Shown one piece after another: positions 23,776 through 39,839 of a stretch of 64,000 bases of DNA. The stretch is from NCBI RefSeq assembly GCF_011297335.1, contig NZ_JAAOTJ010000016.1, positions 62,001 through 126,000 of the forward strand, written 5' to 3'. Source of the DNA: Catellatospora methionotrophica. GTDB lineage: Bacteria; Actinomycetota; Actinomycetes; Mycobacteriales; Micromonosporaceae. The stretch's first letter is position 1, and the number at the start of each line of letters is the position of its first letter. A program made the translations under genes and the position numbers. The notes under the pieces are model-generated. The model was given only the letters and a program-made list of their open reading frames with translations, had not been told where the DNA came from and made no database searches.

Positions 23776-25035
23776 TCACGCAGCCTGTAGTGCCTCGGCC
23801 CGGCGCTCGCGGGCCGGGCCCGACCAGAGCTGCCCGGCCGCCGCGACGATAGCGATCACGCCGCAGCCCAGCCACAGCGCCTCGTCCCCGAGGTGCTGCT
23901 GCACGTAGCCGCCCAGCACCGGAGCGGCGAATCCGGCCACCGACCAGGACAGCGACATCACTCCCTGGTAACGACCGCGCATGGCGGCCGGGGACAGCGC
24001 GGCGGTCAGCGTCGAGTTCGACGGCGAGTTGAGCATCTCGCCGACCGTCCAGATCAGCACGGTCAGCGCGTAGAACGCGGCCGAGTCGGCGAACGCGGTC
24101 AGCCCGAACCCGAGCCCGATGATCACCGCCGCGACGGCGAGCACCCGCGAACGGTCGTACGCCCTGATCAGTTTGGGGATGAACAGCTGCCCGGCCACGA
24201 TGAGCACCCCGTTGAGGGCGATGACCAGGCCGTACTGCTGCGCGGGGATGCCGTCGCCGGTCATCGCGATGGGCAGCGTGGACAGGTGCTGCATGAACAC
24301 GAACGAGATCAGCAGGTTGACCGCGACGAAGCCGAGGAACACCCGGTCGCGCAGCACCACGCCGATGCCCGCCCGCTCGACCGGCGCGTGCGGCGCGGCG
24401 GCGGGCCGCTCCCGGTGCGGTTCGCGCACCTTGAGCAGGATGAACAGGAACGGCGCCAGTGCTGTTCCAGCGTTGATCAGGAAGATCAGCTTCGGGTCGG
24501 CCGCAGCGGCCAGGCCCGCCAGCGTCGCGGCCACGGCGAAGCCGACGTTGACGGCCCAGTAGTTGAGCGTGAATGCGCGCAGCCGGTCCTTCGCGGGCAC
24601 CACGTCGACCATCAGCGCCTGGAAGGCCGGGCGTGACGCCTCTCCGACCAGGCCGAACAGGAAGGCGAGCGGTGCGATCGCCCAGAAGCCCTGCGCGAAG
24701 GCCAGAGCCACCAGCAGCACGACCGCACCCAGGTGGGCGACCAGCAGCGTGATCCGCCGCCCCACCCGGTCCGCGGTCACGCCGCCGATCAGGGTGCCGA
24801 TCGCCCCACCCGCCGCCCACAGACCGAGCACCAGGCCGGACCGCGACGGCGAGAAGCCCTGCACGGTCGTCAGGTAGATGGTCAGGTAGACGATGACGAA
24901 GCCGCCGGCCCGGTTGATCAGCGAACCGGTCCACAGGTACCAGTAGGTCGCGGGCAGCCCGCCCACGGTCTCGGCGAACCAGCGCCGCACCCCGCCCGGA
25001 CCGGCGGGTGTCGTCTCACGCGGCGACGGGGGCAA
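23776..25035 (-). CDS. MFS transporter
   Basis: 419 residues, 12 predicted helices, loop-2 motif GGVTADRVGRRITLL and the repeat-equivalent region in the second half. Closely similar in layout to both neighbours (WYLWTGSLINRAGGF here, WYLWTGTLINRTGAF upstream), so the three arose by tandem duplication. The start is a TTG at 25035 with a strong GGAAGGAG site 6 nt upstream, overlapping the end of the upstream gene by 20 bp; the next in-frame GTG at 24990 lacks a site. The substrate is unknown. Confidence 0.87.
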   Translation of the reverse strand: MPPSPRETTPAGPGGVRRWFAETVGGLPATYWYLWTGSLINRAGGFVIVYLTIYLTTVQGFSPSRSGLVLGLWAAGGAIGTLIGGVTADRVGRRITLLVAHLGAVVLLVALAFAQGFWAIAPLAFLFGLVGEASRPAFQALMVDVVPAKDRLRAFTLNYWAVNVGFAVAATLAGLAAAADPKLIFLINAGTALAPFLFILLKVREPHRERPAAAPHAPVERAGIGVVLRDRVFLGFVAVNLLISFVFMQHLSTLPIAMTGDGIPAQQYGLVIALNGVLIVAGQLFIPKLIRAYDRSRVLAVAAVIIGLGFGLTAFADSAAFYALTVLIWTVGEMLNSPSNSTLTAALSPAAMRGRYQGVMSLSWSVAGFAAPVLGGYVQQHLGDEALWLGCGVIAIVAAAGQLWSGPARERRAEALQAA

Positions 25036-26281
25036 GGTCGGCTCCTTCCACGGTCGGCTTCGGCTCGGTCAGGGCGCGGGCGCGGCGCTCGCGGACCGGG
25101 CCGCTGAGCAGCTGACCGGTCGCGACGGCGACGCCCAGCAGCGCCAGCACCAGCCACAGCGTCATCGGCGGCGCGTGGTCGAGCAGCATGCCGCCGAACA
25201 CCGGCGCGAAGAAGTTGGCCGCGGTGAAGCCCATCGAGGCGACGCCCTGGTAGCGGCCGCGCATCGCGGGCTGCGACAGGTCCGCGATCAGGGTGCCGTT
25301 GACGGGGGCGTTGAGCATCTCGCCCGCCGTCCAGACCACCACGGTCAGCATCAGCGCCGGAACGGTGCCCGCGATGGCGGTCGCGCCCATGCCCAGGCCG
25401 ACCAGCAGCGCCGACAGCGCCAGCACCCGGCTGCGGTTGCGCCCGGCCAGCAGCTTCGGCACGAACAGCTGGAACGCCACGATCATGATGCCGTTGACCG
25501 CGATCACGGTGCCGTAGTCGGCGGCGTCGAGGCCGCGCTGGTGCATCGCGATCGGGATCAGCTTGCAGGACTCGATGATGATCCACAGACCGAGGTTGAG
25601 CAGCACGAACGTCATGAACACCCGGTCGCGCAGCACGATGAGGATGCTTCCCTCGACCGGTGCGCGGTGCGGCACGGCCACGCCGGGCACCGCCGCCCGG
25701 ACCGGCCGGGTCTCCGGCACCCGCCAGAACACGATCGCCGCCATGGTCAGCTGGGCCGCCGCGTTGAGCAGGAACACCGTCAGGTGCGGGGTGCGCGACA
25801 GCACGCCCGCCAGCACCGCCGCGAACGAGAAGCCCAGGTTGATGGCCCAGTAGTTGAGGTTCATGCCGCGCATGCGCTTGGTCGGGCCGAGCACGTCGAC
25901 CATGGTCGCGGAGAAGGCGGGGCGGCCCAGTCCGTTCCAGAAGCCGTACACCGCGGCCAGCAGCGCGACCGCGACCGGCTGGAACACGAAGCCGAGCACC
26001 ACCGCGGTCGCGGCGAGCGCGAGGTTGGACACCAGCAGCGTGGAGCGCCGCCCCCAGCGGTCCGCGAGCACGCCCCCGGCCAGCGAGCCCAGCGCCATGC
26101 CGCCGCCGAACAGGCCGAGCACGAGCCCGGCGAAGGTGGCGGAGAAGCCGTACTCGACCACCATGTGGATCTCGAGGTACAGCATCACGAACGCGCCGGT
26201 GCGGTTGATCAGTGTGCCGGTCCACAGGTACCAGAAGATCTTCGGCAGTCCGCCCGTCGTCTGCGTCAACCAGCCCCGCAC
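25016..26281 (-). CDS. MFS transporter, first gene of the operon
   Basis: 421 residues, 12 helices, loop-2 motif GGVLADRWGRRSTLL. The GTG start at 26281 has CAGGAG with 6 nt spacing; the reading frame is open to a TTG at 26305, but that lies upstream of the ribosome site. Head of three tandem MFS genes running to 22340. No regulator is encoded within the operon; the upstream neighbour gpm is divergent across about 200 bp. Confidence 0.88.
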   Translation of the reverse strand: MRGWLTQTTGGLPKIFWYLWTGTLINRTGAFVMLYLEIHMVVEYGFSATFAGLVLGLFGGGMALGSLAGGVLADRWGRRSTLLVSNLALAATAVVLGFVFQPVAVALLAAVYGFWNGLGRPAFSATMVDVLGPTKRMRGMNLNYWAINLGFSFAAVLAGVLSRTPHLTVFLLNAAAQLTMAAIVFWRVPETRPVRAAVPGVAVPHRAPVEGSILIVLRDRVFMTFVLLNLGLWIIIESCKLIPIAMHQRGLDAADYGTVIAVNGIMIVAFQLFVPKLLAGRNRSRVLALSALLVGLGMGATAIAGTVPALMLTVVVWTAGEMLNAPVNGTLIADLSQPAMRGRYQGVASMGFTAANFFAPVFGGMLLDHAPPMTLWLVLALLGVAVATGQLLSGPVRERRARALTEPKPTVEGADLAPVAA

Positions 26282-26484
26282 ACCGCACTCCTGTAATGAT
26301 TGCAACCCCGTCTAACGCCTTACAACCTAGGCCGCCGGTACGACGGAAGTCACCCCGAATTTCACGTGGTGGTCGTCACTGCACCGCGTCGACGGCTCGG
26401 CGCCCGCTCCGCTGCGCTGCGCAGTCGTTCGCCGTTAGGGGACTGGTCACAAGGCCTTGACGGTCATCGGGAAAGATGGGCGGC

Positions 26485-27666: not shown

Positions 27667-29475
27667 CTACGATGCGCTACCGTCTCCGAGCTTCGTGATC
27701 AACTCGACCCGGGTCCGTACGCCGAGCTTGCGATAGATGCTGGCCAGGTGGGTTTCGACGGTCCGCTCGCCGAGCACGAGCGCGGTAGCGATCTCCTTGG
27801 CGGGCGCGCCGCGCAGTGCCCACGACAGCACCTCGCGCTCGCGGGCGGTCAGCCCGCCCGGCCCGGCGTCCGGACCCGACCAGGCTCGCAGGGCACGGTC
27901 GGCCGCCTCGGCCACGGCCGGGTCGACGAGCCGCCCGGCGGCCAGCGCCCGGTCGGCGGCCAACGGATCGGGCCGCCCGCGCAGGGCCGCCAGCTCCGCC
28001 GCGGCGCGTAGCGCGTACCAGCGGACGAGCGCGGTGGGGCGTCCTTCGCCCAGTGCCGCCGTCTGGGCCAGCAGGGCCACGGCACGGCTCCGGTCGCCGC
28101 GCCGGACCGCGTCGGCGGCCGCCAGGTCGTACGCCCGTACTTGCAACTCGGCGTCGCCGAGCGCGGCTGCTTCGCGTACCACCTGGTCGAGCCGACCGCC
28201 CGCAGCCAGCAGCGCCTCCGCGACCGCCCGCGGGTCTCCCCCGGCGCGGGCCAGGTCCAGCGCCCGGTCGGCCAGCTCCGCCTCGCCCAGCTCATCGGCC
28301 AGCCGCGACATCAGCCGCGCGGCCACCGAGTGCTGCTCTGGCGGCAGCCCCGACGCGGGCAGCGCCGCACAGGCGTCGCGCAGCGCACCCATCCGCACCG
28401 GGTCCCCGGGTGCCCGCTCATCCGGGTGGCCGACCTGCCCTGATCCACCGGGTACGCCGCCAGCCGCTGAACCTGCGCGCAGGGCCGGACGGCGCGCCGC
28501 TGCGCCCTCCACCGCTCCACCGCCCACCATGCCGTCTCCGGTGCCGACCGCGCCGTCCGCGACCCCGGCACGCGCTGGGCCGACGCTCGGGGCCAAGGCT
28601 CCCAGGCTCGGGCGCGGCCCCAGCCCCAGCGCCGCTGCCGCGATCAGGCCCATGTCGGACGCGCGCAGGCCGAGGCGCAGTGCGCCGGTGAGCGACGCGC
28701 GACCGGCCTCGCGGGCCGCCGCGCTGGCCGCGCCGCGCAGCCGGGCCGTGCCCGAGGCGGCGAGCAGCCTTCCAGCCTGCGCAGGAGTCCATCCGGCCCG
28801 CCCGGCGAACAGGGCGGCCTGCGCGTAGTAGCCGGCGGCCAAGTCGTACGCGCCGTCCTCGTCGGCGGCGGCCGCAGCGGTGGCCGAAGCGGCGACCGCG
28901 GCGTCGAGCCGGGCCGCTCCGCCCAGCGCGGCCGCCTCGGCGGTGTGGTGTGCCAGTTCCGGCAGGGTCGCCGCTCGGGTCCCGCCGAGCGCGCCTAGCC
29001 GGATCAGCACACCGGCGACGCGTTCGTGCAGCGCCGCGCGGCTGCGGCCGCCGAGCGTGTCGTAGCAGACCTCGCGGTCAAGGGCGCGTACGAAGCCGTA
29101 CACCTGGGGGCCCTGCTCGCGGACCAGTCCCGCCGCGGCGGCGTCGTCGAGGCCGCTGAGCACGTCCTGCTCGGGGCATACGCCCTCCAGGATGGCCAGG
29201 TCGAACTCGCGGCCGATCACGGCGGCCGCGGTGACCGTCTCGCGCGCGCCGGGCTCCAGCGCGCGCAGCGCCGCCCGCACCGGCTCGGCCAGTTCCTCGG
29301 GCCAGCGCAGCGGGAGGCGGTAGAGCCCGTCGCCGTCGGCGTCGACCTGGTCGGCGATCGCGGCCAGCACTGTCGGGTCCGCGTCGGTCCGCCGCAGCAG
29401 CTGCTCCACGAGGCGGGGCGCGACGGGGCGGCCGATGCGCTCCCGCAGCAGCTCGGCAGCCTGTCGGCGATCCAC
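27667..29475 (-). CDS. LuxR-family regulator resembling a truncated LAL protein
   Basis: About 602 residues. The last 60 are a LuxR/GerE HTH (LTAREREVLSWALRGAPAKEI, TVETHLASIYRKLGVRTRVE). The N-terminus (LRWPEELAEPVRAALRALEP, VIGREFDLAILEGVC) resembles the winged-helix region that follows the ATPase in large LAL (MalT-like) regulators, then an Ala-rich helical-repeat region. No Walker A loop is seen, so ATP binding seems lost. The GTG at 29475 follows GGGGAGG; the frame stays open to 30660, but that part is antisense to the proline-rich gene and is rejected. Divergent from the NHLP-like/proline-rich gene, which it may regulate. Confidence 0.8.
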   Translation of the reverse strand: MDRRQAAELLRERIGRPVAPRLVEQLLRRTDADPTVLAAIADQVDADGDGLYRLPLRWPEELAEPVRAALRALEPGARETVTAAAVIGREFDLAILEGVCPEQDVLSGLDDAAAAGLVREQGPQVYGFVRALDREVCYDTLGGRSRAALHERVAGVLIRLGALGGTRAATLPELAHHTAEAAALGGAARLDAAVAASATAAAAADEDGAYDLAAGYYAQAALFAGRAGWTPAQAGRLLAASGTARLRGAASAAAREAGRASLTGALRLGLRASDMGLIAAAALGLGPRPSLGALAPSVGPARAGVADGAVGTGDGMVGGGAVEGAAARRPALRAGSAAGGVPGGSGQVGHPDERAPGDPVRMGALRDACAALPASGLPPEQHSVAARLMSRLADELGEAELADRALDLARAGGDPRAVAEALLAAGGRLDQVVREAAALGDAELQVRAYDLAAADAVRRGDRSRAVALLAQTAALGEGRPTALVRWYALRAAAELAALRGRPDPLAADRALAAGRLVDPAVAEAADRALRAWSGPDAGPGGLTAREREVLSWALRGAPAKEIATALVLGERTVETHLASIYRKLGVRTRVELITKLGDGSAS

Positions 29476-29562
29476 GGCGCCTCCCCTCTCCGGGTCGGTA
29501 CGCAGCACCCCCGGTGCAGAAGTTACGTACTCGCCGCGATGTGCGCAGTCCCCTAACGGACC

Positions 29563-29568
29563 TAGCGT
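29563..29568 (+). promoter_or_regulatory. Candidate -10 box for the proline-rich gene
   Basis: TAGCGT, 58 nt before the start of the proline-rich gene, in the 151-bp divergent region shared with the LuxR-type gene. No clear -35. Confidence 0.4.
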
Positions 29569-29626
29569 GAACTCACCTCGCAACGCCCCCGCACGAACCC
29601 CCTCTCCCATTGAAAGGGAGCCTCCG

Positions 29627-30940
29627 ATGTCCCAGTTCCGCGATCTCATCGCCAGGATGGCGGTGGACCCGGAGTTCGCCCGGCACGCACGGGCCAATCC
29701 GGACGCCGTCGCCACCCAGTACGGCCTCACCGCCGACGAGACCGACCAGCTCCGCGGCCTTGCCGACGCCTCGGCGGGGGCCGGGCCCACCGCCCTGGGC
29801 GTACGCCTGTCCAAGTCCGGCATCGGCACCGGCGGCCTCGGCAGCCTCATCTCCCCCGCCGACCTGACCCCGGACCTGCCGGACCTGCCGGACGACGAGC
29901 CGACGGCCCCGCTGCCGCCCGCCGAGCCCGCCCCGGTCGCGCCGATCCACCTCACGCCCGTCGACCTGACGCCGGACGCAGAGGAGCCGCTGCCCCCGCC
30001 CCCGCTGCCGCTGCCCGAGGAGCCGCTGCCCCCGCCCCCGCTGCCGCTGCCCGAGGAGCCGCTGCCCCCGCCCCCGCTGCCGCTGCCCGAGGAGCCGCTG
30101 CCCCCGCCCCCGCTGCCGCTGCCCGAGGTCGGCCTGCACCTGCCGGACCTCGACCTGGTGCCGCTGGACCCGGACCCCGAGCCCGCGCCGATCCTGCCGC
30201 CGGTCGTCCACCTGCCGCCGGACTTCAACTTCCCGGGGCTGGACCCGGACCCCGAGCCGGACCCGATCGTCCCCCCGGTCATCCACCTGCCGCCGGACTT
30301 CGGGCTGCCGCCGTTGACGCCGGAGCCGGACCCGGGCCCGTGGATCCCGCCGATCCACCTCCCGCCGGACCTCGACCTGCCGGACCTGCCGGAGCTCGAA
30401 CCCATCCCGGACCCGGGCCCGTGGATCCCGCCGATCCACCTGCCCCCGGACCTCGACCTGCCGGACCTCCCGGAACTCGAACCGGCCGAGCCCGCCGAGC
30501 CCGCGGAACCGGCCGAGCCCGCTCCGCCGCCACCGGCCCCGGAGCCCGCACCCGAGCCCGCCCCGGCCCCGGAGCCCGCACCCGAGCCGGCCCCGGCTCC
30601 CGACCCGGCTCCCGCACCCCCCGCCCCGGCCCCCGCGCCGGTGGTGGACCCGGTGGCCACCCCGACCGAGGACGCCGGTCCGGTCGTCGTGGTCGTGCAG
30701 TCCGGCGACCCGGCCGCACCCGGGGCCGACCCCGCCCCGGCGGCCTCCCCGCAGCCGGGCGCTGTCCAGGCTTACCCGGCCGCCGCGAGCGAGAGCTCCG
30801 ACGGCATCGGCACCCAGGAGCTGATCATCGGCGGAGCGGGCCTGGCCGCGGGAGCGGTCGCGGGCGGCGTCGCCGGAGCGGTCGCGGGCAAGGTCTTCAA
30901 GTCCGATCAGGACGGCACCGAGGCGACCGCCGCGGCCTGA
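29627..30940 (+). CDS. NHLP/Os1348-like leader domain fused to proline-rich repeats and a glycine-zipper tail
   Basis: 437 residues. Residues 1-65 (RDLIARMAVDPEFARHARAN, YGLTADETDQLRGL, ALGVRLSKSG) resemble the helical NHLP/Os1348 leader of RiPP-type precursors. Residues 75-330 are Pro/Leu/Asp/Glu-rich, with four identical copies of EEPLPPPPLPLP and two of a PWIPPIHLPPDLDLP unit, then Ala-Pro-Glu repeats. The last 40 residues hold a glycine/alanine zipper (GGAGLAAGAVAGGVAGAVAG) able to span a membrane. ATG at 29627 with AAGGGAG 6 nt upstream. Next to a PqqD-like/M50 gene, so it may be the substrate of that protein. Function not established. Confidence 0.78.
   Translation: MSQFRDLIARMAVDPEFARHARANPDAVATQYGLTADETDQLRGLADASAGAGPTALGVRLSKSGIGTGGLGSLISPADLTPDLPDLPDDEPTAPLPPAEPAPVAPIHLTPVDLTPDAEEPLPPPPLPLPEEPLPPPPLPLPEEPLPPPPLPLPEEPLPPPPLPLPEVGLHLPDLDLVPLDPDPEPAPILPPVVHLPPDFNFPGLDPDPEPDPIVPPVIHLPPDFGLPPLTPEPDPGPWIPPIHLPPDLDLPDLPELEPIPDPGPWIPPIHLPPDLDLPDLPELEPAEPAEPAEPAEPAPPPPAPEPAPEPAPAPEPAPEPAPAPDPAPAPPAPAPAPVVDPVATPTEDAGPVVVVVQSGDPAAPGADPAPAASPQPGAVQAYPAAASESSDGIGTQELIIGGAGLAAGAVAGGVAGAVAGKVFKSDQDGTEATAAA
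29981..30124 (+). repeat. Four perfect 36-bp tandem repeats
   Basis: Four identical 36-bp units starting at 29981, 30017, 30053 and 30089, each encoding EEPLPPPPLPLP inside the proline-rich protein. Exact identity implies recent expansion or homogenisation. Confidence 0.95.
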
Positions 30941-30956
30941 CCGTCCGCACCAGACA

Positions 30957-31001
30957 CCGGGCAGCAGGGGTGTGCGCCCCCGTCGCACCTCTGCTGCCCG
31001 G
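30957..31001 (+). terminator. Hairpin between proline-rich gene and protease gene
   Basis: 16-bp arms (CCGGGCAGCAGGGGTG and complement, one mismatch) with a 13-nt loop, 17 nt after the stop. It would at least attenuate transcription into the protease/kinase genes. Confidence 0.75.
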
Positions 31002-31084
31002 CACACTCCCACCCATCGACGAACCCCCTGAACGGATCACCGTCGTAAAGCAGTCAGCCGAGAGCGTGCCGCCGTTCGGCCGCC

Positions 31085-31090
31085 TATGAT
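31085..31090 (+). promoter_or_regulatory. -10 box of the protease/kinase operon
   Basis: TATGAT, close to the consensus TATAAT, 42 nt before the ATG of the FHA/M50 gene and downstream of the hairpin at 30957, so genes 31133-36099 can be transcribed separately. No good -35. Confidence 0.55.
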
Positions 31091-31132
31091 TCGGCTCGCC
31101 GCACGGCTCCATACCCCTTGAAAGGCCGAACG

Positions 31133-32863
31133 ATGTTGTGCCACGCCTGCCATGTGCACCTGCGGCGGGACTACCCGTACTGCCTGCACTGCGGCACGCT
31201 CCGCAAGGGCGCTGTGGTGGAGTCGTTCGCGGCGCCGGAGCTGCGCTGGCACGACGCGGCAGGTGAGCGGGTCTTCCCGCTCGTCAAGCCGCACACCACG
31301 ATCGGCCGCGCCCCCGACAACGACATCGTGCTCGACGACGCCAGCGTCTCGCGCCACCACGCCCGGGTCGTCCGCAACGCCGAGGGCTTCCACCTCGAAG
31401 ACCTCAACTCGTTCAACGGCACCACCCTGGGCCGGCGTACGTTCCACGGCGACTGGGCCCCGCTGCCCGACGAGTCCGAAATGCACATCGGCGACATACC
31501 GCTGCGGTTCGCGCAGCCGCGATCGGCGGCGATCGGCTCCAAGACCATGGTGCGCGGCGTCGAGCACAGCATCCTGCTGCCCGCCGGTCAGCCCGAGACC
31601 GCGCCGACGGCCACCGGCCCGCTGACGGCCCGCCCCCGGCGGCGCAGCGGCTGGGCCCTCAAGCAGGTGCCGGACATGCGCGGCGACCAGCAGTGGGTGC
31701 TGCGCAACACTCGTACGGGGCAGTACCTGCAGCTCGACGAGCGCGACGTGTTCCTGTGGCACCAGCTCGACGGCGAGAACACGGTGCGCGACCTGCTCTT
31801 CGCGTACGCCCAGCAGTACGGCGAGCTGGCGCTGCCCCGCATCGAGCGGACGCTGCGCACGTTCGCGGCGCTGGAGCTGGTGCGCGGCGTGCACGGCCAG
31901 CGCGAGGCGGACAAGCCGCCGCTGCTCAAGCGGTTCGGCCAGGCCGTGCTGAGGACGCTGCTGCGCACCGAGGTGTCGGTCAAGGGCCTGGACCGGGTGT
32001 TCAGCGCGATGTACCGGTCGTTCGGCTGGCGCTTCTTCACGCGTACCGGCGTGGCGGGTCTGTGGTTGTGCATCATCGGCGGCATCTACGCGATGACCGT
32101 GGCCAGCGCCGAGCAGAACCTGTTCGACATCAACGGCGCGGGCATCTGGGGCGCGGTCGTCATCGCGGCGGGTTACCTGTTCGCGCTGATCGTGCACGAG
32201 TCGGCGCACGCGCTGGCCGTGAAGTCGTACGGCCGCACGGTCACCCGGGGCGGGTTCATGCTGATGATGGGCATGCCGTTCGCGTTCGTGGACACCTCGG
32301 ACATGTGGTTCGGCAGCCGCTGGTCGCGCATCGTGGTGACGCTGTCCGGGCCACTGTCCACCGCCGCCATCGCCGGGATGCTCGCCGCCACCGCCGCCTG
32401 GGTGCCCGTGCCGCAGGTCTCCGGCATGGCGTACCAGCTGGCCTTCGGCCTGTACCTGAACACGCTGTACAACCTGAACCCGCTGATGCCGCTGGACGGC
32501 TACCAGGCGCTCGCGGACGGGCTGCGGCTGCCGCGCCTGCGCGAGGAGGCCTCGGCCTACTTCACCAAGGGCATCTGGTCCGACCTGAAGGCGGGCCGCA
32601 GGCCCGGCATCAAGCAGATAGGCATGGCGGCGTACGGCTTCACCGCCGTCGTCGGCACCGGTCTGTTCGTGCTGCTGGGCTTCCTGGCCTGGCGCGACCG
32701 GCTCGGCGGACTCGTCGAGGAGTACCTGCCGCCCGGCATCGACGTGCTGGTCATCGTGCTGGGCATCGGCCTGATCATGTTCCCGATCTGGTACCGGCTG
32801 TTCCGCAAGCTGACCGCGTTCATCAAGTCCCGCAAGGCCGCGACTGCGGAGGTGACGGCATGA
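31133..32863 (+). CDS. Zinc ribbon-FHA-PqqD-like-M50 membrane protease fusion
   Basis: 576 residues in four parts. Residues 3-20 form a zinc ribbon (CHAC...CLHC). Residues 48-128 are an FHA phospho-threonine-binding domain (IGRAPDND, SVSRHHARV, NSFNGTTLG). Residues 176-255 resemble PqqD/RiPP-recognition domains (WVLRNTRTGQYLQLDERD, LFAYAQQYG). From residue 305 a multi-helix M50 metalloprotease follows, with HESAH at 355-359 and the third-ligand motif NPLMPLDGY at 449-457. The ATG at 31133 has GAAAGG 7 nt upstream. Its stop overlaps the kinase start by ATGA. A phospho-regulated peptide-processing or export role is inferred from the combination. Confidence 0.85.
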   Translation: MLCHACHVHLRRDYPYCLHCGTLRKGAVVESFAAPELRWHDAAGERVFPLVKPHTTIGRAPDNDIVLDDASVSRHHARVVRNAEGFHLEDLNSFNGTTLGRRTFHGDWAPLPDESEMHIGDIPLRFAQPRSAAIGSKTMVRGVEHSILLPAGQPETAPTATGPLTARPRRRSGWALKQVPDMRGDQQWVLRNTRTGQYLQLDERDVFLWHQLDGENTVRDLLFAYAQQYGELALPRIERTLRTFAALELVRGVHGQREADKPPLLKRFGQAVLRTLLRTEVSVKGLDRVFSAMYRSFGWRFFTRTGVAGLWLCIIGGIYAMTVASAEQNLFDINGAGIWGAVVIAAGYLFALIVHESAHALAVKSYGRTVTRGGFMLMMGMPFAFVDTSDMWFGSRWSRIVVTLSGPLSTAAIAGMLAATAAWVPVPQVSGMAYQLAFGLYLNTLYNLNPLMPLDGYQALADGLRLPRLREEASAYFTKGIWSDLKAGRRPGIKQIGMAAYGFTAVVGTGLFVLLGFLAWRDRLGGLVEEYLPPGIDVLVIVLGIGLIMFPIWYRLFRKLTAFIKSRKAATAEVTA

Positions 32864-34470
32864 CTCAACCCGACATGTGGACCGTGCCCGGATATGTCGA
32901 GATCCGGGAGCTGGGGCGCGGCGCGTCCGGGCTGGTCGTGCTCGCCGAGCACGAGGCGACCGGGGTCAAGGTCGCCATCAAGTACCTGGCCGAGCACCTA
33001 CGTGACGACGAGAACTTCATCCGCTCGTTCCGGGCCGAGGCCCGCGTCATGTCCGAGGTCGAATCCCCGCAGGTCGCCCGGCTGTACGAGTACATCGAGG
33101 CGCCCGGCGGCGCGGCGATCGTGATGGAGCTGGTCGACGGCGTCGCGCTGCGCGCGATCCTGCGCGAGCAGGGCCCGACCGAGCCCGAGGCCGCCCTGGT
33201 GGTGCTGAAGGGCTCGCTGCTCGGCCTGGCCGCCGCCCACGAGCGCGGCGTCGTGCACCGCGACTACAAGCCCGAGAACGTGCTCGTCAACGGCGAGGGC
33301 CAGAGCAAGCTGGCCGACTTCGGCATCTCCGCCCGCAGCGGCCGCCAGGGCCCGCTGGCGGGCACCCCGTCGTACATGGCCCCCGAGCAGTGGGCCGGTG
33401 CCCCCGCGAGCCCGTCGACCGACATCTACGCGGCGACCGCCACGTTCTTCGAGTGCCTGGCCGGGCAGCCGCCGTTCCGCGCCCCCGGCGACCTCCAGGG
33501 CCTGCGCCGCCAGCACGAGCATGCTCCGGTCCCCGTGGAGATGGTCCCCGAGGCGGTACGCGGCCTGGTCCGCCGTGGCCTGGCCAAGGACGCCAAGCAG
33601 CGTCCCAAGGACGCCACGACGTTCCTGCGCGAGCTGGAGGCCGTCGCCGGGGCCGGTTACGGGGCCCAGTGGGAGGAGGAGGGCCGCAGCAAGCTGGCCC
33701 GCCGCGCACTGCTGCTGGCGCTGCTGTTCCCGCTGGCCGCCGTGCAGGCCCAGGCGACCGCCATCGGCACCACGATCCTAGGCATGTCCCGCAAGGCGTT
33801 CACCACGGCGGCCAGCATCACCGCCCTCGTACTGGTCCTCGGCGGCGCGGGCGCGGCCGCGGCCCTGTGGCCGACCGCCAGCACCCCGACGCCAGAGCCC
33901 AGCGCCACCGCGGCCGAGTCCCCGTCGCCGATCCCGTCACCCTCGGAAAGCCCGTCGCCGAGCCCGTCCCCCTCACCAAGCCCGTCGGCGGAGCCGTCGC
34001 CGTCCCCCTCGGACGAGCCGGAGCCCAGCCCCAGCCCGAGCCGCAAGCCGTCCCCCTCGCCGTCCCCGGCGAACCCGGTCGCGACCGTCACGGCCTTCCT
34101 CCGGCCGAGCACCTGCTGGTGGGTCAAGGAGGCGTGCGCCGGCACCGCGCCGAACGCCGCCGCGCGGGAGTCCCGCACCTTCGTGATCGTGAACACCGAC
34201 CAGCCGGGCAGCTACCGCTACACGCTGCGGTTCACCGCGATCAACTACAACAACATGCCGATCGACACGATCCCGCAGAAGACCTTCGTGGTCACCGGAA
34301 CCACGGACAGCCAGAGCAAGACCGTCTCCACCGTCGTCGACATGAGCGGCCTGCTCTACTGCGGCACCCAGATCCGGGTGACGATCGAGACCACGCGGGG
34401 TGGCCCGGCCATTCCCACGAAGGTCTACTCTGCACCCATCATTCAGAACGCTGACTGCATCATCGGCTGA
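32860..34470 (+). CDS. Receptor-type Ser/Thr protein kinase
   Basis: 536 residues. PknB-type kinase domain (11-265): glycine loop LGRGASGLV, Lys41 in VAIKYL, catalytic HRDYKPENV (Asp135), DFG at 153-155 and APEQW, all intact. A membrane helix (ITALVLVLGGAGAAAAL) follows at about 322, then a Ser/Pro linker (SPSPSPSPSPS) and an extracellular domain of about 125 residues with cysteines (STCWWVKEAC, LLYCGTQ, NADCIIG); no PASTA repeats. Start overlaps the protease stop; GGAGG 7 nt upstream. A likely partner is the FHA domain encoded upstream. Confidence 0.93.
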   Translation: MTQPDMWTVPGYVEIRELGRGASGLVVLAEHEATGVKVAIKYLAEHLRDDENFIRSFRAEARVMSEVESPQVARLYEYIEAPGGAAIVMELVDGVALRAILREQGPTEPEAALVVLKGSLLGLAAAHERGVVHRDYKPENVLVNGEGQSKLADFGISARSGRQGPLAGTPSYMAPEQWAGAPASPSTDIYAATATFFECLAGQPPFRAPGDLQGLRRQHEHAPVPVEMVPEAVRGLVRRGLAKDAKQRPKDATTFLRELEAVAGAGYGAQWEEEGRSKLARRALLLALLFPLAAVQAQATAIGTTILGMSRKAFTTAASITALVLVLGGAGAAAALWPTASTPTPEPSATAAESPSPIPSPSESPSPSPSPSPSPSAEPSPSPSDEPEPSPSPSRKPSPSPSPANPVATVTAFLRPSTCWWVKEACAGTAPNAAARESRTFVIVNTDQPGSYRYTLRFTAINYNNMPIDTIPQKTFVVTGTTDSQSKTVSTVVDMSGLLYCGTQIRVTIETTRGGPAIPTKVYSAPIIQNADCIIG

Positions 34471-34485
34471 GAAGGACGCGCTGCG

Positions 34486-36099
34486 GTGACCGACACCATC
34501 GGTGGCAAATACACCCTGCTGGATGCGGGGCGGGCCGGACGGCTCGGCACGTGGCACACGGTGTCCACAGCGGAGGGCAAGCAGCGCGGCGCGCTGCGCC
34601 TGGAGGACCGGGGCCTGACCGACCCGGCCGCCGCCCAGCGCCTCGCCGACGCCGTCAGCGGACAGGCCCGCCTGCGCGTGCCCGGCCTGCTCAACGTCAT
34701 CGACCAGGTGACCGAGGGCAGGCACAGCTGGCTGATCACCAACGCCGCCCCGTCGCCGACGGTCGCGCAGGCGCTCGCGGCCGGGGTGACCCTGCCGCCC
34801 GCCGTGGCCGCGCTGATCGCCACCGACACCGCGCAGACGCTGCTCAAACTCCACTCGGGCCAGCTGGCCCACGGCGAGCTGAACGCCCACGGCGTCGTGA
34901 TCAGCGCCGGTGGCGCGGCCCTGCTGGCCGAGGCCGGCTACGGACACGCGGTGCTCGGCACGACCCCCGGCCCCGGCCACGACGCCGCAGGCTGGTCACG
35001 CCTGCTGGCCCAGCTCGCCGACGCCTGCCACGACGCGGTCACCCAGCAACTGCTGCGCCAGGCCGGGCAGCAGGCCGAAGCCGTCGGCGGCAGCGCGGGC
35101 ATCACCGCCGCCCTGACCACCCTCAGCGGCGCGGCCCAGCAGATCACCGGCTTCGGCGACCGCGCCGCACTCAAGTCCCTCGCCGCCCGGATGCACCCGC
35201 TCGCCACCACGCCGGTGTCGGCCTCGCCGATGTCCGCTCCGCCCGTGTCCGCGCCGCCCGTCTCGGCCCCACCGGTCGCCGCGCCGCCGGTCTCGGGTCC
35301 GCCCGCCTTCCCCGCCCAGCAGCCGTGGGCGGCCGCACCGGCCTTCCCGCCGGGGGCGCCCGCTGGCGTCCCAGCCGCCGAGGAGACCGTGCAGCTGGCC
35401 GGAGGTTCGCACTCCGGTCCACCGCCGCAGCCGCCCCGCACCGCGCCACCGACCGCCGTCATGCCCGTGGTGCCGCCGGACGGGGCCACCCGCATGGGCA
35501 ACCGGGCCGCCGAGGAGCAGCGCAAATCCGGCGCGTACCAGGTGGGCCGGGCCGCCCCGCCGCAAGCTCAGCAGCCGCAGCAGGACGTGAACCTGCGGTT
35601 CGGGCAGGGCGTGCCGCCCGCGCCGCCCGCCTGGCAGATGGCCGCCGCGCAGGCCGCCCCGCCGCCCCGACCCAGGAAGACCGTCGGCAAGCGCATCGCT
35701 GCGTTCTTCAGCGCGCTGACCACGGTCGCCCTGCTGGTCATCGCGGGCTACGTCGGCTGGAACTGGTGGCAGGAGCGCAACAACGCCGTCCAGGTCACCA
35801 AGGTCACCGTCACCCCGGTCGTCCCGCCGACCACCGCCGAGTGCAACGTGAACGTCGACGTGGTCGGCCTGATCGAGACCGACGGCCAGGCCGGCGTCAT
35901 CACGTACGAGTGGCTGCGCAACGACGGCGAGACCTCCGGCGCGCTGGAGCAGGCCGTCAAGGACGGCACGCGCAGCGTCCAGGTCCACCTGTTCTGGCGC
36001 TTCCAGGGCAAGGGCACCCGCGAAGCCGAAGCCACCCTGCGCATCCTCAAGCCCACCGTCATTCAGGGTTCGTCGAAGTTCACCTACTCCTGCAAGTGA
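34486..36099 (+). CDS. Receptor pseudokinase with extracellular beta-sandwich-like domain
   Basis: 537 residues. The N-terminal 230 follow the kinase pattern (GGKYTLLDAGRAGRLGTWHTV; LAHGELNAHGVVIS in place of HRDxKPxN; LAEAGYG in place of DFG), but the catalytic Asp, the DFG Asp and a clear VAIK lysine are missing, so it should bind rather than phosphorylate. A Pro/Ala-rich linker with repeats (SAPPVSAPPV) leads to a membrane helix (TTVALLVIAGYVGWNWW) and an extracellular domain with two terminal cysteines (AECNVNV ... TYSCK). GTG start 15 nt after the active kinase, with AAGGA upstream. It probably regulates or scaffolds the kinase. Confidence 0.82.
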   Translation: MTDTIGGKYTLLDAGRAGRLGTWHTVSTAEGKQRGALRLEDRGLTDPAAAQRLADAVSGQARLRVPGLLNVIDQVTEGRHSWLITNAAPSPTVAQALAAGVTLPPAVAALIATDTAQTLLKLHSGQLAHGELNAHGVVISAGGAALLAEAGYGHAVLGTTPGPGHDAAGWSRLLAQLADACHDAVTQQLLRQAGQQAEAVGGSAGITAALTTLSGAAQQITGFGDRAALKSLAARMHPLATTPVSASPMSAPPVSAPPVSAPPVAAPPVSGPPAFPAQQPWAAAPAFPPGAPAGVPAAEETVQLAGGSHSGPPPQPPRTAPPTAVMPVVPPDGATRMGNRAAEEQRKSGAYQVGRAAPPQAQQPQQDVNLRFGQGVPPAPPAWQMAAAQAAPPPRPRKTVGKRIAAFFSALTTVALLVIAGYVGWNWWQERNNAVQVTKVTVTPVVPPTTAECNVNVDVVGLIETDGQAGVITYEWLRNDGETSGALEQAVKDGTRSVQVHLFWRFQGKGTREAEATLRILKPTVIQGSSKFTYSCK

Positions 36100-36763: not shown

Positions 36764-37600
36764 ATGCCTCCCAGCCCTACGGCCATTCGTCGACGCGTTG
36801 GCTACAGACTGCGCGAGCTGCGCAACCGGGTTGGTATGACCACGATCGAAGCCGCAGCAGTCATCGGCGGGTCCGACGCCAAGATCAGTCGACTTGAGCG
36901 TGGCTTGACGCCGCTTCGTCCAGGCGATGTCCTACTGCTTCTCGACTGTTACGGCGGAATCGAGCGTGACGAGCGAGACCTGCTCGTGCAGCTCGCAGGC
37001 GATTCCGGCCGCCGAGGCTGGTGGCAGGCTTACGAACTGCCCGAATGGTTCAACCTGTACATCGGCCTCGAAAGCGCCGCCTCGTCGATCTCCAACTTCG
37101 AAACGCTACTGATTCCCGGCTTGCTCCAGACAGCCGATTACACCCGAGCCCTGGTTCGCCAGGCACAGCCCACCGCCACGGCGGAGCGCGTAGATCGCAT
37201 AGTTGACGCGAGGCTGAAACGCCAGGGTCGGCTGACCGGGGATGATCCCATCCGACTGCGTGCAGTCGTGGGCGAAGCGGCATTGCATTGCGTGGTCGGC
37301 ACTCCCGACGTCATGCGCGCGCAATTTGCACAGCTCGCCAGGCTCAGTGAGTCACCGAACATCGAACTCCGCTTGGTTCCGTTCAGCTCACCCGCGTACG
37401 CACCGTATGGACGACCTGTCGTCATCCTGGACTTCCCCGAGCCCAGCGACCCGGGACTGGTTTACTTCGATCACCTCGGTAAGGGCGTGTACGTTGAGGA
37501 GGAGGCGCACATTGCCACCCATCGACAGGCGTTCGAGATGCTGGTCGGGGGCGCGTTGAGCACCGAGGACTCCGCCCGGCTTTTCGCTGATCGAGGATGA
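36764..37600 (+). CDS. XRE-family HTH regulator with Scr1/DUF5753 sensor domain
   Basis: 278 residues. N-terminal XRE HTH (GYRLRELRNRVGMTTIEAAAVIGGSDAKISRLERG) and C-terminal DUF5753 domain (WFNLYIGLESAASSISNFET, LIPGLLQTADYTRAL, LRAVVGEAALH). Such proteins pair with DUF397 genes by the hundred in actinomycetes; WhiJ, which affects development in Streptomyces, is the best-known member. ATG start, overlapping the DUF397 gene by ATGA. Codon use is less GC-biased than the flanks, consistent with mobility of these modules. Confidence 0.9.
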   Translation: MPPSPTAIRRRVGYRLRELRNRVGMTTIEAAAVIGGSDAKISRLERGLTPLRPGDVLLLLDCYGGIERDERDLLVQLAGDSGRRGWWQAYELPEWFNLYIGLESAASSISNFETLLIPGLLQTADYTRALVRQAQPTATAERVDRIVDARLKRQGRLTGDDPIRLRAVVGEAALHCVVGTPDVMRAQFAQLARLSESPNIELRLVPFSSPAYAPYGRPVVILDFPEPSDPGLVYFDHLGKGVYVEEEAHIATHRQAFEMLVGGALSTEDSARLFADRG

Positions 37601-37800
37601 TGGACGTGTTCGAGAACGTCGTGTGGAAGAAAAGCAGCCGCAGTGACGGTCAGGGTGCCAACTGCGTCGAGGTCGCCGTCTCACCGGACGCGGTTGGGGT
37701 AAGGGACAGCAAGGACAGGGATGGGGCCACGCTCGCATTCACTCCGGACGACTGGGCAGCCTTCCTGACCGGGATCAAGTCCGGCGAATTCGACAGCTGA
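37597..37800 (+). CDS. DUF397 protein
   Basis: 67 residues with the family pattern: NVVWKKSSRSDGQGANCVEVA near the start, then VGVRDSKDRDGATLAFTPDDWAAFL. Partner of the Scr1-type regulator, translationally coupled to it by an ATGA overlap. The pair has been compared with toxin-antitoxin modules, DUF397 being the one that may counter the regulator. Two ATG codons in a row at 37597. Confidence 0.92.
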   Translation: MMDVFENVVWKKSSRSDGQGANCVEVAVSPDAVGVRDSKDRDGATLAFTPDDWAAFLTGIKSGEFDS

Positions 37801-37807
37801 GTCGATC

Positions 37808-38323
37808 ATGCAGGTGAACCTCGTACAGGGTGACATCACGCGCCAGGAAGTGGACGTGATCGTCAACGCGGCCAACTCGTCGCTGCTCGGCGGCGGCGGC
37901 GTCGACGGTGCGATCCACCGCAAGGGCGGCCCGGAGATCCTCGCCGAGTGCCGTGCGCTGCGCGCATCCCATTACGGCCGTGGCCTGTCCACAGGTCAAG
38001 CAGTCGCCACCACTGCGGGCAAACTCCCCGCCCGCTGGGTGGTGCACACAGTCGGCCCCGTCTACAGCGCCACCGAAGACCGCTCCGAGCTGCTACGCGA
38101 CTGCTACCGCAACGCGCTACGGGTGGCCGACGACCTGGGCGCCCGAACCATCGCCTTCCCCCTGATCTCGTCTGGCGTATACCGCTGGCCGATCGAGGAC
38201 GCCGTCCGCCAGGCCCTCGGCGTCCTCGACCACGCCGAAACGAAAATCGACCAGGCCACCCTCGTCCTCTTCGACGCCCCTACCTACAAAACCGCCCTCT
38301 CCGCGCGCGGAATCCCTGCATGA
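37808..38323 (+). CDS. Macrodomain protein (O-acetyl-ADP-ribose deacetylase type)
   Basis: 171 residues, a single macrodomain of the MacroD/YmdB class: LVQGDITRQEVDVIVNAANSSLLGGGGVDGAIH holds the catalytic Asn and the GGGGVDGAI loop, and FPLISSGVYRWP the second phosphate loop. It removes acetyl from O-acetyl-ADP-ribose or ADP-ribose from acidic side chains. ATG at 37808, 7 nt after the DUF397 stop. Its own stop codon lies inside a palindromic repeat (38319-38385). Confidence 0.92.
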   Translation: MQVNLVQGDITRQEVDVIVNAANSSLLGGGGVDGAIHRKGGPEILAECRALRASHYGRGLSTGQAVATTAGKLPARWVVHTVGPVYSATEDRSELLRDCYRNALRVADDLGARTIAFPLISSGVYRWPIEDAVRQALGVLDHAETKIDQATLVLFDAPTYKTALSARGIPA

Positions 38324-38777: not shown

Positions 38778-39839
38778 TCAGTAGATCGCGTGGGCGAGCG
38801 CGGCCACGAAGGCGTCGCTGGTGGGCTCGTCGCGGACGGCGATGCGGAGCCAGTCGGGGCCCAGGCCGGGGAAGGTGTCGGCGCGTCGGACGGCGTAGCC
38901 CGCGTCGCGCAGGCGGGCGCGTACGCCCAAGCCGCCGGTGACCTTGAGGAGCACGAACGAGCTGGCCGGGGTGCCTGCGACGGCCACCTCGGGCAGTTGC
39001 CGCAGGGCGGTGAGCAGGTGCTCGCGGCGGGCGGTCAACTCGTCAGCGATCGCCTCCTCGGCTGCGACGGCCGCCGGAGTGGCACACGCGGCAGCGGCGG
39101 CGAGCGCGGGCGTCGACACCGGCCACAGCGGCTGCACGGCGGCCAGCCTGCGCACCAGGTCCGGTGCGGCCAGCAGGTAGCCGACGCGCAGCCCGGCCAG
39201 TGCCCAGGTCTTGGTGAGGCTGCGCACCACCACGAGGCCGGGCAGGTCGCGGCGGGTGGCCAGGGAGTGCGGCTCGCCGGGGATGGTGTCGGCGAACGCC
39301 TCGTCGACGACGAGGATGCGGCCTGGCCGGGCGAGCCGGGCGACCGTGTCGGCGGGGTGCGCGACCGAGGTGGGGTTGGTCGGGTTGCCGAGCAGGACCA
39401 GATCGGCGTCGTCGGGCACGGCGGCGGGGTCGAGCGTGAACGGTTCGGGCAGCAGGACTCGGGTCACCCGGTGCCCGGCGGCCAGCAGCGCCGCCTCCGG
39501 CTCGGTGAACTGGGGGTGGATCACGACGGGGTGGCGGACGTCGCGCAGTCCCTGGGCGAGCAGCGTGAACGCCTGGGCGGCACCGGCGGTGAGCAGCACC
39601 TCGCCGGGTTCGCGGCGGTGCCGGGCGGCGACCGCGGCACGTGCTGCGGTGCCGTCGGGGTATGCATCCAGGCGGGTCAGTGAGTCGCGGATCGCGGCGG
39701 CGAGCCAGTCGGGCAGCGGGGCCTGCCGCACGTTCACCGCGAGGTCGATCAGTCCGTCGCCGACCTCGGTGTCACCGTGGTGGCCGAGGTCGTAACCGTC
39801 TCCCACCGGTTTGCCCGATGCCGCCGTCGTCGCCGTCAT
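38778..39839 (-). CDS. cobC: PLP-dependent aminotransferase-like CobC (Rv2231c type)
   Basis: 353 residues, fold-type I PLP enzyme of the histidinol-phosphate aminotransferase/threonine-phosphate decarboxylase group: LLTAGAAQAFTLLAQGL, LLGNPTNPTSVAHP, ILVVDEAFADTIPGE, and Lys in VRSLTKTWALAGLRVGYLL. In cobalamin synthesis this class makes (R)-1-amino-2-propanol phosphate for the CobD step. The ATG at 39839 overlaps the cobD stop by ATGA. Last gene of mshA-ybjN-cobD-cobC. Confidence 0.88.
   Translation of the reverse strand: MTATTAASGKPVGDGYDLGHHGDTEVGDGLIDLAVNVRQAPLPDWLAAAIRDSLTRLDAYPDGTAARAAVAARHRREPGEVLLTAGAAQAFTLLAQGLRDVRHPVVIHPQFTEPEAALLAAGHRVTRVLLPEPFTLDPAAVPDDADLVLLGNPTNPTSVAHPADTVARLARPGRILVVDEAFADTIPGEPHSLATRRDLPGLVVVRSLTKTWALAGLRVGYLLAAPDLVRRLAAVQPLWPVSTPALAAAAACATPAAVAAEEAIADELTARREHLLTALRQLPEVAVAGTPASSFVLLKVTGGLGVRARLRDAGYAVRRADTFPGLGPDWLRIAVRDEPTSDAFVAALAHAIY

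Follow-up and report, generated by a model that had tools for sequence, protein, structure and literature searches.

Four genes encoding a leader-bearing protein, a membrane protease, a receptor Ser/Thr kinase and a receptor pseudokinase lie in succession on the plus strand of a 64,000-nucleotide stretch (the window) of the 8.4 Mb genome of Catellatospora methionotrophica (contig NZ_JAAOTJ010000016.1, positions 62,001 to 126,000). A preliminary description had named the features of this locus from the sequence, and their presence is confirmed. In the nearest named records, which are from Catellatospora, the protease is 80-95% identical to that of the window.

The first gene (29627..30940) encodes a putative substrate of 437 amino acids, in which a leader is followed by acidic proline-rich repeats and a C-terminal hydrophobic segment, as judged by profile match, repeat scan and hydrophobicity. 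Residues 1-65 (29627..29821), which had been likened to NHLP/Os1348 leaders, do match the 'Os1348 family NHLP clan' profile NF038399 below its curated cut-off (7.8e-07, 29.1 bits for the whole protein; 3.5e-08, 33.4 bits for the first 79 residues) and end in a conserved motif, R-x-[SN]-[KRQ] (here RLSKSG). All 28 leaders in the alignment match this profile at E<=0.01, the best of them at 5.8e-11. Pfam gives no match to the whole substrate at E<=1, and a profile search of the PDB with the leader gave weak matches to nitrile hydratase alpha (0.017) and to an 85-residue 'nitrile hydratase alpha chain' (6lk7, 0.047); 8vd6, from the same list, was judged spurious as a relative of the leader. The perfect proline repeats and the glycine zipper noted previously correspond to a 36-bp proline-rich unit repeated 4.1 times with 100% matches (29981..30128) and to a small-residue-rich, glycine-zipper-like segment at residues 399-417 (30821..30877).

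The second gene (31133..32863) encodes a membrane protease (P0002) that is a fusion of zinc ribbon, FHA, PqqD-like and M50 regions, as had been proposed: profile matches to FHA, PqqD and M50 were found, the latter two below cut-off, and the zinc ribbon has a CxxC pattern, for which Pfam is not significant. Homologous proteins were compared in alignments drawn from 28 loci described below (15 rows each for protease and pseudokinase, 19 for the kinase). The FHA domain (residues 55-120, 31295..31492, Pfam 4e-15) retains the phosphothreonine-binding residues R59, S73, H76 and N95, none of which varies among the 15 homologues, and right behind it, in a stretch predicted to be disordered (residues 131-170, pLDDT <50), lies a threonine that is also invariant in all 15 (Thr138, codon 31544..31546) and is a candidate phosphosite, the second of two in the locus. 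The PqqD-like region (approximately residues 174-250, 31652..31882) is a putative RRE, the recognition element for leaders of ribosomally synthesized and post-translationally modified peptides (RiPPs); it matches PqqD at E<=0.01 in every one of the 15 homologues (best 1.1e-4), and in a low-confidence model it is predicted to form three strands followed by three helices (pLDDT mostly 62-80). No natural proteins other than PqqD (3g2b, 0.037) and TbiB1 (0.82) appear in its PDB profile list; the designed beta-trefoils at the top of that list matched one short repeated motif and were judged spurious. The M50 active-site elements extend from HESAH (residues 355-359) to NPLMPLDG (residues 449-456; 32195..32500 in all), and the HExxH and NPxxx[LV]DG motifs are found in 15 of 15 aligned homologues. 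The closest counterpart of the protein is the daptide leader peptidase, whose model NF041824 aligns to residues 179-525 (3.9e-41).

The third gene (32860..34470), which starts within an ATGA overlap at 32860 as described earlier, encodes an intact receptor Ser/Thr kinase (P0003, Pkinase 2.1e-44) with a kinase domain, a hydrophobic segment, a Pro/Ser-rich linker and a variable ectodomain (34093..34467). Its K41 (the VAIK lysine), H133-R134-D135 and D153-F-G are invariant in 19 of 19 aligned kinases. The fourth gene (34486..36099) encodes a receptor pseudokinase of 537 amino acids (P0004), consisting of a dead kinase domain, a disordered linker, one predicted membrane helix and a conserved all-beta ectodomain. 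By eye it has HGE at the HRD site and is missing the beta3 lysine and DFG, in agreement with its earlier classification; the replacement of H-R by H-G and the missing DFG are common to 15 of 15 homologues. Pfam Pkinase is insignificant for this protein (0.36, with no Pfam match at 0.01) and kinase models match just 2 of the 15 homologues at E<=0.01, but a pseudokinase profile matches PknA at 8e-11, and the structural model has a kinase fold (pLDDT >90 over most of the domain; Foldseek E 3e-09 to PknA). The linker, 157 residues that are disordered in the model and poorly alignable, contains a sole invariant threonine (Thr335, codon 35488..35490, 15/15) in the context [AED]-T-x-[LM], which is a candidate ligand of the FHA domain when phosphorylated, and a second conserved motif, [LV]RFGxG, near the membrane (35593..35610, 15/15).

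The tight spacing described for the protease, kinase and pseudokinase genes holds, and the substrate gene is more loosely attached, being set apart by 192 bp in the window. This gap contains a strong hairpin with 16-nt arms (30957..31001; z = -3.5 against shuffles of the window gap), possibly an attenuator or terminator, that was not listed by a terminator scan requiring a U-tract. The nearest leader-protease gap is 113-250 bp, with strong folding, in 15 Micromonosporaceae loci; in seven Streptomyces loci only 8-18 bp separate the end of the leader gene from the protease gene.

The four genes occur together across genera and families, as the check proposed with the preliminary description anticipated, and their order is kept from Catellatospora to Streptomyces. 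Twenty-eight distinct loci with a full FHA-type protease were collected, among which no pair of protease genes exceeds 97.1% DNA identity (same-strain duplicates among loci L036-L048 and L056-L075 were counted once). A leader gene precedes the protease on the same strand in all 22 loci whose upstream DNA is long enough; the remaining six break off 348-1500 bases upstream, with the C-terminus of the substrate still visible in three. The kinase follows the protease in 28 of 28 loci, and the pseudokinase is found in 26, both misses being due to the end of the sequence. Its start is usually about 1.6-1.8 kb after the protease, versus 2.7-5.5 kb in L063, L073 and L046. Two leader genes in tandem are found in L060, L042, L065 and L074.

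Leader and protease also tend to be found in the same genomes. Among 121 Micromonosporaceae genomes, the leader profile matches 69 and an RRE-M50 query 72: both are present in 67, the leader alone in 2 (weak matches), the protease alone in 5 and neither in 47. In 60 of the 72, the RRE-M50 gene has a leader on its own strand no more than 5 kb away, upstream in 14 (the FHA-type arrangement) and downstream in 46 (an arrangement with a region like cyclic nucleotide monophosphate (cNMP)-binding domains, below), the domain content behind these two counts having been checked in the fetched loci. Of 150 Streptomyces genomes, 5 encode the FHA-type protease, and the same 5 have strong leader matches (E<1e-29) upstream of it; weak leader matches (5e-6 to 1e-3) occur in five further genomes. 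A class-wide draw of 394 genomes yielded the full-length protease in 4, including that of the window, and the RRE-M50 part alone in 3 more.

Other Micromonosporaceae encode an RRE-M50 protein of approximately 1030-1170 amino acids with a cNMP-like region rather than FHA (PF00027 8e-6 and 3.2e-5 in the two proteins scanned, below cut-off) and, by eye, a variable C-terminal part. These proteins, for which no name was found, resemble the FHA-type set in their RRE-M50 core (M50 motifs are present in L049-L054) and in having a leader protein nearby, but have the cNMP-like region and the fused C-terminal part instead of FHA and separate kinases. Behind the cNMP-type gene is a gene for a 71-residue zinc-ribbon protein (L049, L051, L052, L053), then, in L049, L051 and L052, a leader protein with DxDxDG repeats. 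The leader ends in R-[AT]-N-Q-S-S in three aligned cNMP-type proteins, versus R-L-S-K-S-[GS] in most of the FHA type. As far as sequence comparison goes, the same leader/protease pair carries two different control modules.

Small zinc-ribbon proteins of 70-82 amino acids are encoded directly behind the cNMP-type gene in L049 (11088-11303), L051 (5641-5856), L052 (1187-1402), L053 (5640-5855), L086 (10701-10949) and L087 (7097-7309), and none was seen there in L050; by eye they resemble the zinc ribbon that forms part of the FHA-type protease, and the L051 copy has no Pfam match. The proteins of L085 (1545-4421) and L086 (7852-10704), near-identical to each other by eye, show a third architecture, in which an AhpC/TSA peroxiredoxin domain (identified by Pfam in L086) comes after RRE-M50-cNMP; the zinc-ribbon gene lies behind the L086 gene, and no clear leader protein was found.

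Thirty leader proteins were compared (19 from Micromonosporaceae of the FHA branch, 7 from Streptomyces, 3 from the cNMP branch and the bodiless L084). The leader is the part common to all 30, and their bodies are hypervariable: Pro-, Gly- and Asp-rich in the 19, and 42-50% glycine in the 7 Streptomyces proteins. The 29 proteins with a body are 254-739 amino acids long and all acidic (net charge -21 to -104), and 29 of the 30 lack cysteine. Two or more DxDxDG-like repeats were counted in 12 of 30, a figure taken without a chance control, and the L064 substrate matches TSP_3 at 0.0062, below cut-off. Acidic, cysteine-poor proteins with calcium repeats are usually extracellular. Because the leader alone is shared, the leader and the stretch directly behind it are the best candidates for recognition and cleavage. 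The partner is evidently not defined by proline, as had first been supposed, since the same leader heads Gly-rich or Asp-repeat bodies elsewhere.

A second, orphan leader protein of 104 amino acids is encoded elsewhere in the genome that contains the window (L084:8823-9137, G000:C23:270822-271046). It comprises the leader and a RLSKSGIGSGGLAGLL stretch with no repeat body, and there is no protease match within its 19 kb stretch. A second leader match in an open frame of 105-138 amino acids is found in 8 of 8 Catellatospora genomes of the leader survey, the neighbours having been checked in the genome of the window.

The kinase and pseudokinase ectodomains, compared in 20 of the 28 loci, differ in their variability. 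In the 11 loci from Catellatospora the kinase domains are 85-99% identical and the pseudokinase ectodomains 50-98% identical, yet 34 of 55 pairs of kinase ectodomains have no BLAST similarity of at least 60 residues. The most striking pair is L059 and L040, with 99.3% identical kinase domains and ectodomains without similarity. DNA comparison of four pairs located the difference in a single replaced block of approximately 380-430 bp between flanks of 83-95% identity. By similarity, the ectodomains were assigned to type A (the window, L058, L059, L060, L043 and L071), type B (L056, L042 and L061) and type C (L040 and L057), of which A and B, 25-33% identical in two pairs and joined by single-linkage clustering, are possibly distant relatives. 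The pattern looks like allele exchange, because types A and B are each found in more than one Catellatospora clade. Ectodomain type and kind of substrate show no correspondence by eye. Silent ectodomain cassettes were considered and set aside: a type B query had no match in the genome of the window, in a search without positive control, and in fetched loci longer than 9 kb the ectodomain types match nowhere except in the kinase gene.

Domain content, active-site state, gene order, co-occurrence of leader and RRE-M50, the invariant threonines and the replacement of the ectodomain, all read from sequence, are the basis on which we infer binding, cleavage and its site, phosphorylation and its sign, and the export and final location of the substrate. 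The reading that we favour, at a probability of roughly 0.55, is signal-gated, leader-guided proteolysis at the membrane of a long acidic repeat protein that would end up on the surface of the cell or beyond it. The RRE of the membrane-bound M50 protease would capture the NHLP leader at the N-terminus of the substrate, and the protease would cut where the leader ends or immediately behind it, near R-x-[SN]-[KRQ], so that the body is released or licensed for the surface. An outside cue may be sensed by the receptor kinase, which would then phosphorylate Thr335 of the pseudokinase, Thr138 of the protease, or both; binding of the phosphothreonine by the protease FHA domain would dock the protease on the receptor pair and switch it on or off. 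The kinase-controlled processing or export that was originally suggested for the proline-rich protein is still a prediction, and the partner is defined by the leader.

Several results weigh against this reading. In the window, profile matches fall short of the respective cut-offs for the leader (40 bits for NF038399), for PqqD (2e-4, 22.0 bits versus 23.4), for M50 (0.0048, 16.7 bits versus 27.2) and for NF041824 (141.5 bits versus 300). The protease model is poor (pLDDT 63.7, pTM 0.37), and because of this RRE and M50 are without fold confirmation: the rows shown by the fold search were FHA matches, with no RRE or M50 folds among them. The Fisher p of 2.8e-25 for co-occurrence of leader and RRE-M50 overstates independence, because the 121 genomes are related, and in 7 of them one partner is present without the other. 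In 12 of the 72 genomes with RRE-M50, no leader on the same strand lies within 10 kb (no leader match in 5, a leader on another contig in 5 and one 20-31 kb away in 2), 34 of the 99 leader matches listed have no RRE-M50 gene within 10 kb, and the stretches fetched around the distant RRE-M50-cNMP proteins L050, L053-L055 and L085-L087 gave no strong leader match (best 0.0017 in L085 and 0.0018 in L086). Neither an exporter gene nor an N-terminal signal-like hydrophobic stretch was noticed, in an analysis without dedicated signal-peptide prediction, so that no route out of the cell is evident.

The lack of noticed export genes favours an alternative in which kinase, pseudokinase and protease together form a sensor that acts by having the leader protein, here a scaffold in the cytoplasm or membrane, degraded or moved within the cell, without any product at the surface. 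Disordered acidic bodies could serve as scaffolds, and the kinase ectodomains vary as those of sensors do, but the DxDxDG or TSP3-like repeats of several substrates suggest, weakly, an extracellular site, and we regard an intracellular output as improbable, although it is marginally the strongest of the competitors. Nearly as improbable is regulated intramembrane proteolysis, in which M50 would cut the C-terminal glycine-zipper helix instead of the leader and a membrane-anchored repeat protein would be shed. The hydrophobic, small-residue-rich segment near the C-terminus, which 18 of the 19 Micromonosporaceae substrates of the FHA branch possess, is a plausible M50 substrate; it is missing, however, from all 7 Streptomyces and all 3 cNMP-branch substrates compared, whose proteases keep the M50 motifs where checked, as well as from the second copy in L065 and from L084. 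With 12 of 30 leader proteins lacking the helix, a universal M50 site there is disfavoured, and the shared element is the leader.

Since NHLP leaders, RREs and daptide-type proteases all originate in RiPP pathways, the leader protein might also be the precursor of a modified peptide, from which RRE-M50 removes the leader after modification. We consider this very unlikely: among 10 flanking proteins scanned by profile, all from the window, there are no RiPP-modifying enzymes or ABC exporters, and the acidic, protein-sized bodies and the near-universal lack of cysteine described above do not fit. In NHLP/Os1348 leader peptides, the family taken for comparison from excerpts of PMC2887384 and PMC7726476, the likeness is in the leader domain; the window-type leader heads a protein of 254-739 amino acids in 29 of 30 cases.

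Each half of the system has a known cousin, the RRE-M50 part being related to the daptide peptidase and the control half resembling PknB-MviN-FhaA. According to excerpts of PMC10036551, an RRE-dependent intramembrane peptidase (MpaP) is said to remove the leader in the daptide pathway, which also includes an oxidative decarboxylase, a PF00202 aminotransferase, a methyltransferase and a DUF-RRE protein. The daptide metalloprotease (NF041824) thus shares with P0002 an RRE joined to an M50 membrane protease, and a leader-bearing ribosomal product, but P0002 adds a zinc ribbon and FHA, and its gene set has a protein-sized NHLP-leader substrate and kinase and pseudokinase partners. None of the 10 flanking proteins that were scanned is a daptide enzyme; the aminotransferase encoded at 38778 belongs to PF00155, not PF00202. 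In mycobacteria, as given in excerpts of PMC12599244 and PMC11898655 and in the title of PDB 3oun, PknB phosphorylates the pseudokinase tail of MviN (Rv3910), to which the FHA domain of FhaA is recruited. Both systems have an active receptor kinase, a membrane pseudokinase with a tail behind its dead domain and an FHA protein, and by analogy with this logic Thr335 would be the FHA ligand and the protease the recruited effector. In the window, by contrast, the FHA domain is part of the RRE-M50 protease itself, the pseudokinase has no lipid II flippase attached (MurJ/MviN; Pfam gives no MviN match), and the output would be proteolysis, with phosphorylation steps that are presumed.

The statement that no system with this set had been described stands in that no publication of the four-gene combination was found in the open-access literature searched (the main text of PMC12710340 has no mention of M50, FHA, NHLP, kinase, metalloprotease or nitrile hydratase), and is qualified by the known cousin of each half. 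The original interpretation as a whole is partly supported. Neither of the two conditions that it named as refuting held, since similarity to NHLP and PqqD (below the curated cut-offs) and co-occurrence of the genes were both found, but the substrate body is hypervariable, and in a sister branch FHA gives way to a cNMP-like region. The four-gene set appears to be a variant of leader-guided RRE proteolysis with real potential as a new system.

More tentatively, and in our estimate probably not the case, the set may represent a new leader-dependent pathway for maturation and surface delivery of protein-sized acidic, repeat or calcium-binding matrix-like proteins in actinobacteria, built of RiPP parts (NHLP leader and RRE protease) without a RiPP and with exchangeable control modules, either FHA together with kinase and pseudokinase or a cNMP-like region. 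Surface maturation may then be tied to self/non-self or contact sensing, because the block replacement of ectodomains resembles recognition loci under diversifying selection. If the favoured reading holds, the leader/RRE recognition code of peptide natural products would also direct proteins of full size, and receptor kinases could control a membrane protease that recognises such a leader. The locus would offer a concrete test case for the joint role of bacterial pseudokinases and FHA domains outside cell-wall synthesis, and the replacement of its kinase ectodomain as a block suggests a polymorphic bacterial receptor.

On the minus strand, diverging from the substrate gene as first described, is a gene (27667..29475) for a LuxR-type regulator of approximately 600 amino acids with a C-terminal helix-turn-helix (HTH) domain (GerE, PF00196, 1.8e-16), the start of which is approximate (GTG near 29475). 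All 15 Micromonosporaceae FHA-type loci that extend far enough upstream have a homologue there on the opposite strand (35-100% identity, E<=4e-69), but 10 Streptomyces loci have weak matches alone (25-30% identity, E 9e-14 to 2e-06); the core is therefore taken to be the four genes without the LuxR-type regulator. At E<=1e-5, PADLOC matches the kinase (best PD-T4-6, 2.1e-65), the pseudokinase and the LuxR-type regulator, possibly through generic kinase or HTH similarity, and does not match the substrate or the protease. A mobile element was considered and rejected, as a search of 72,556 plasmid records with P0002 gave nothing at 1e-20.

Eight of the 10 flanking proteins scanned have a Pfam match, and all are ordinary-looking: two MFS transporters, a histidine-phosphatase-superfamily protein, HTH/DUF5753, DUF397 and macro-domain proteins, an aminotransferase (PF00155) and a GT4-type glycosyltransferase. 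The two MFS transporters are encoded in tandem upstream (23776-26305) and by eye are present in several other loci, and the HTH_31/DUF5753 regulator, the DUF397 protein and the macro-domain protein encoded downstream (36764-38323) are, also by eye, retained in several Catellatospora loci.

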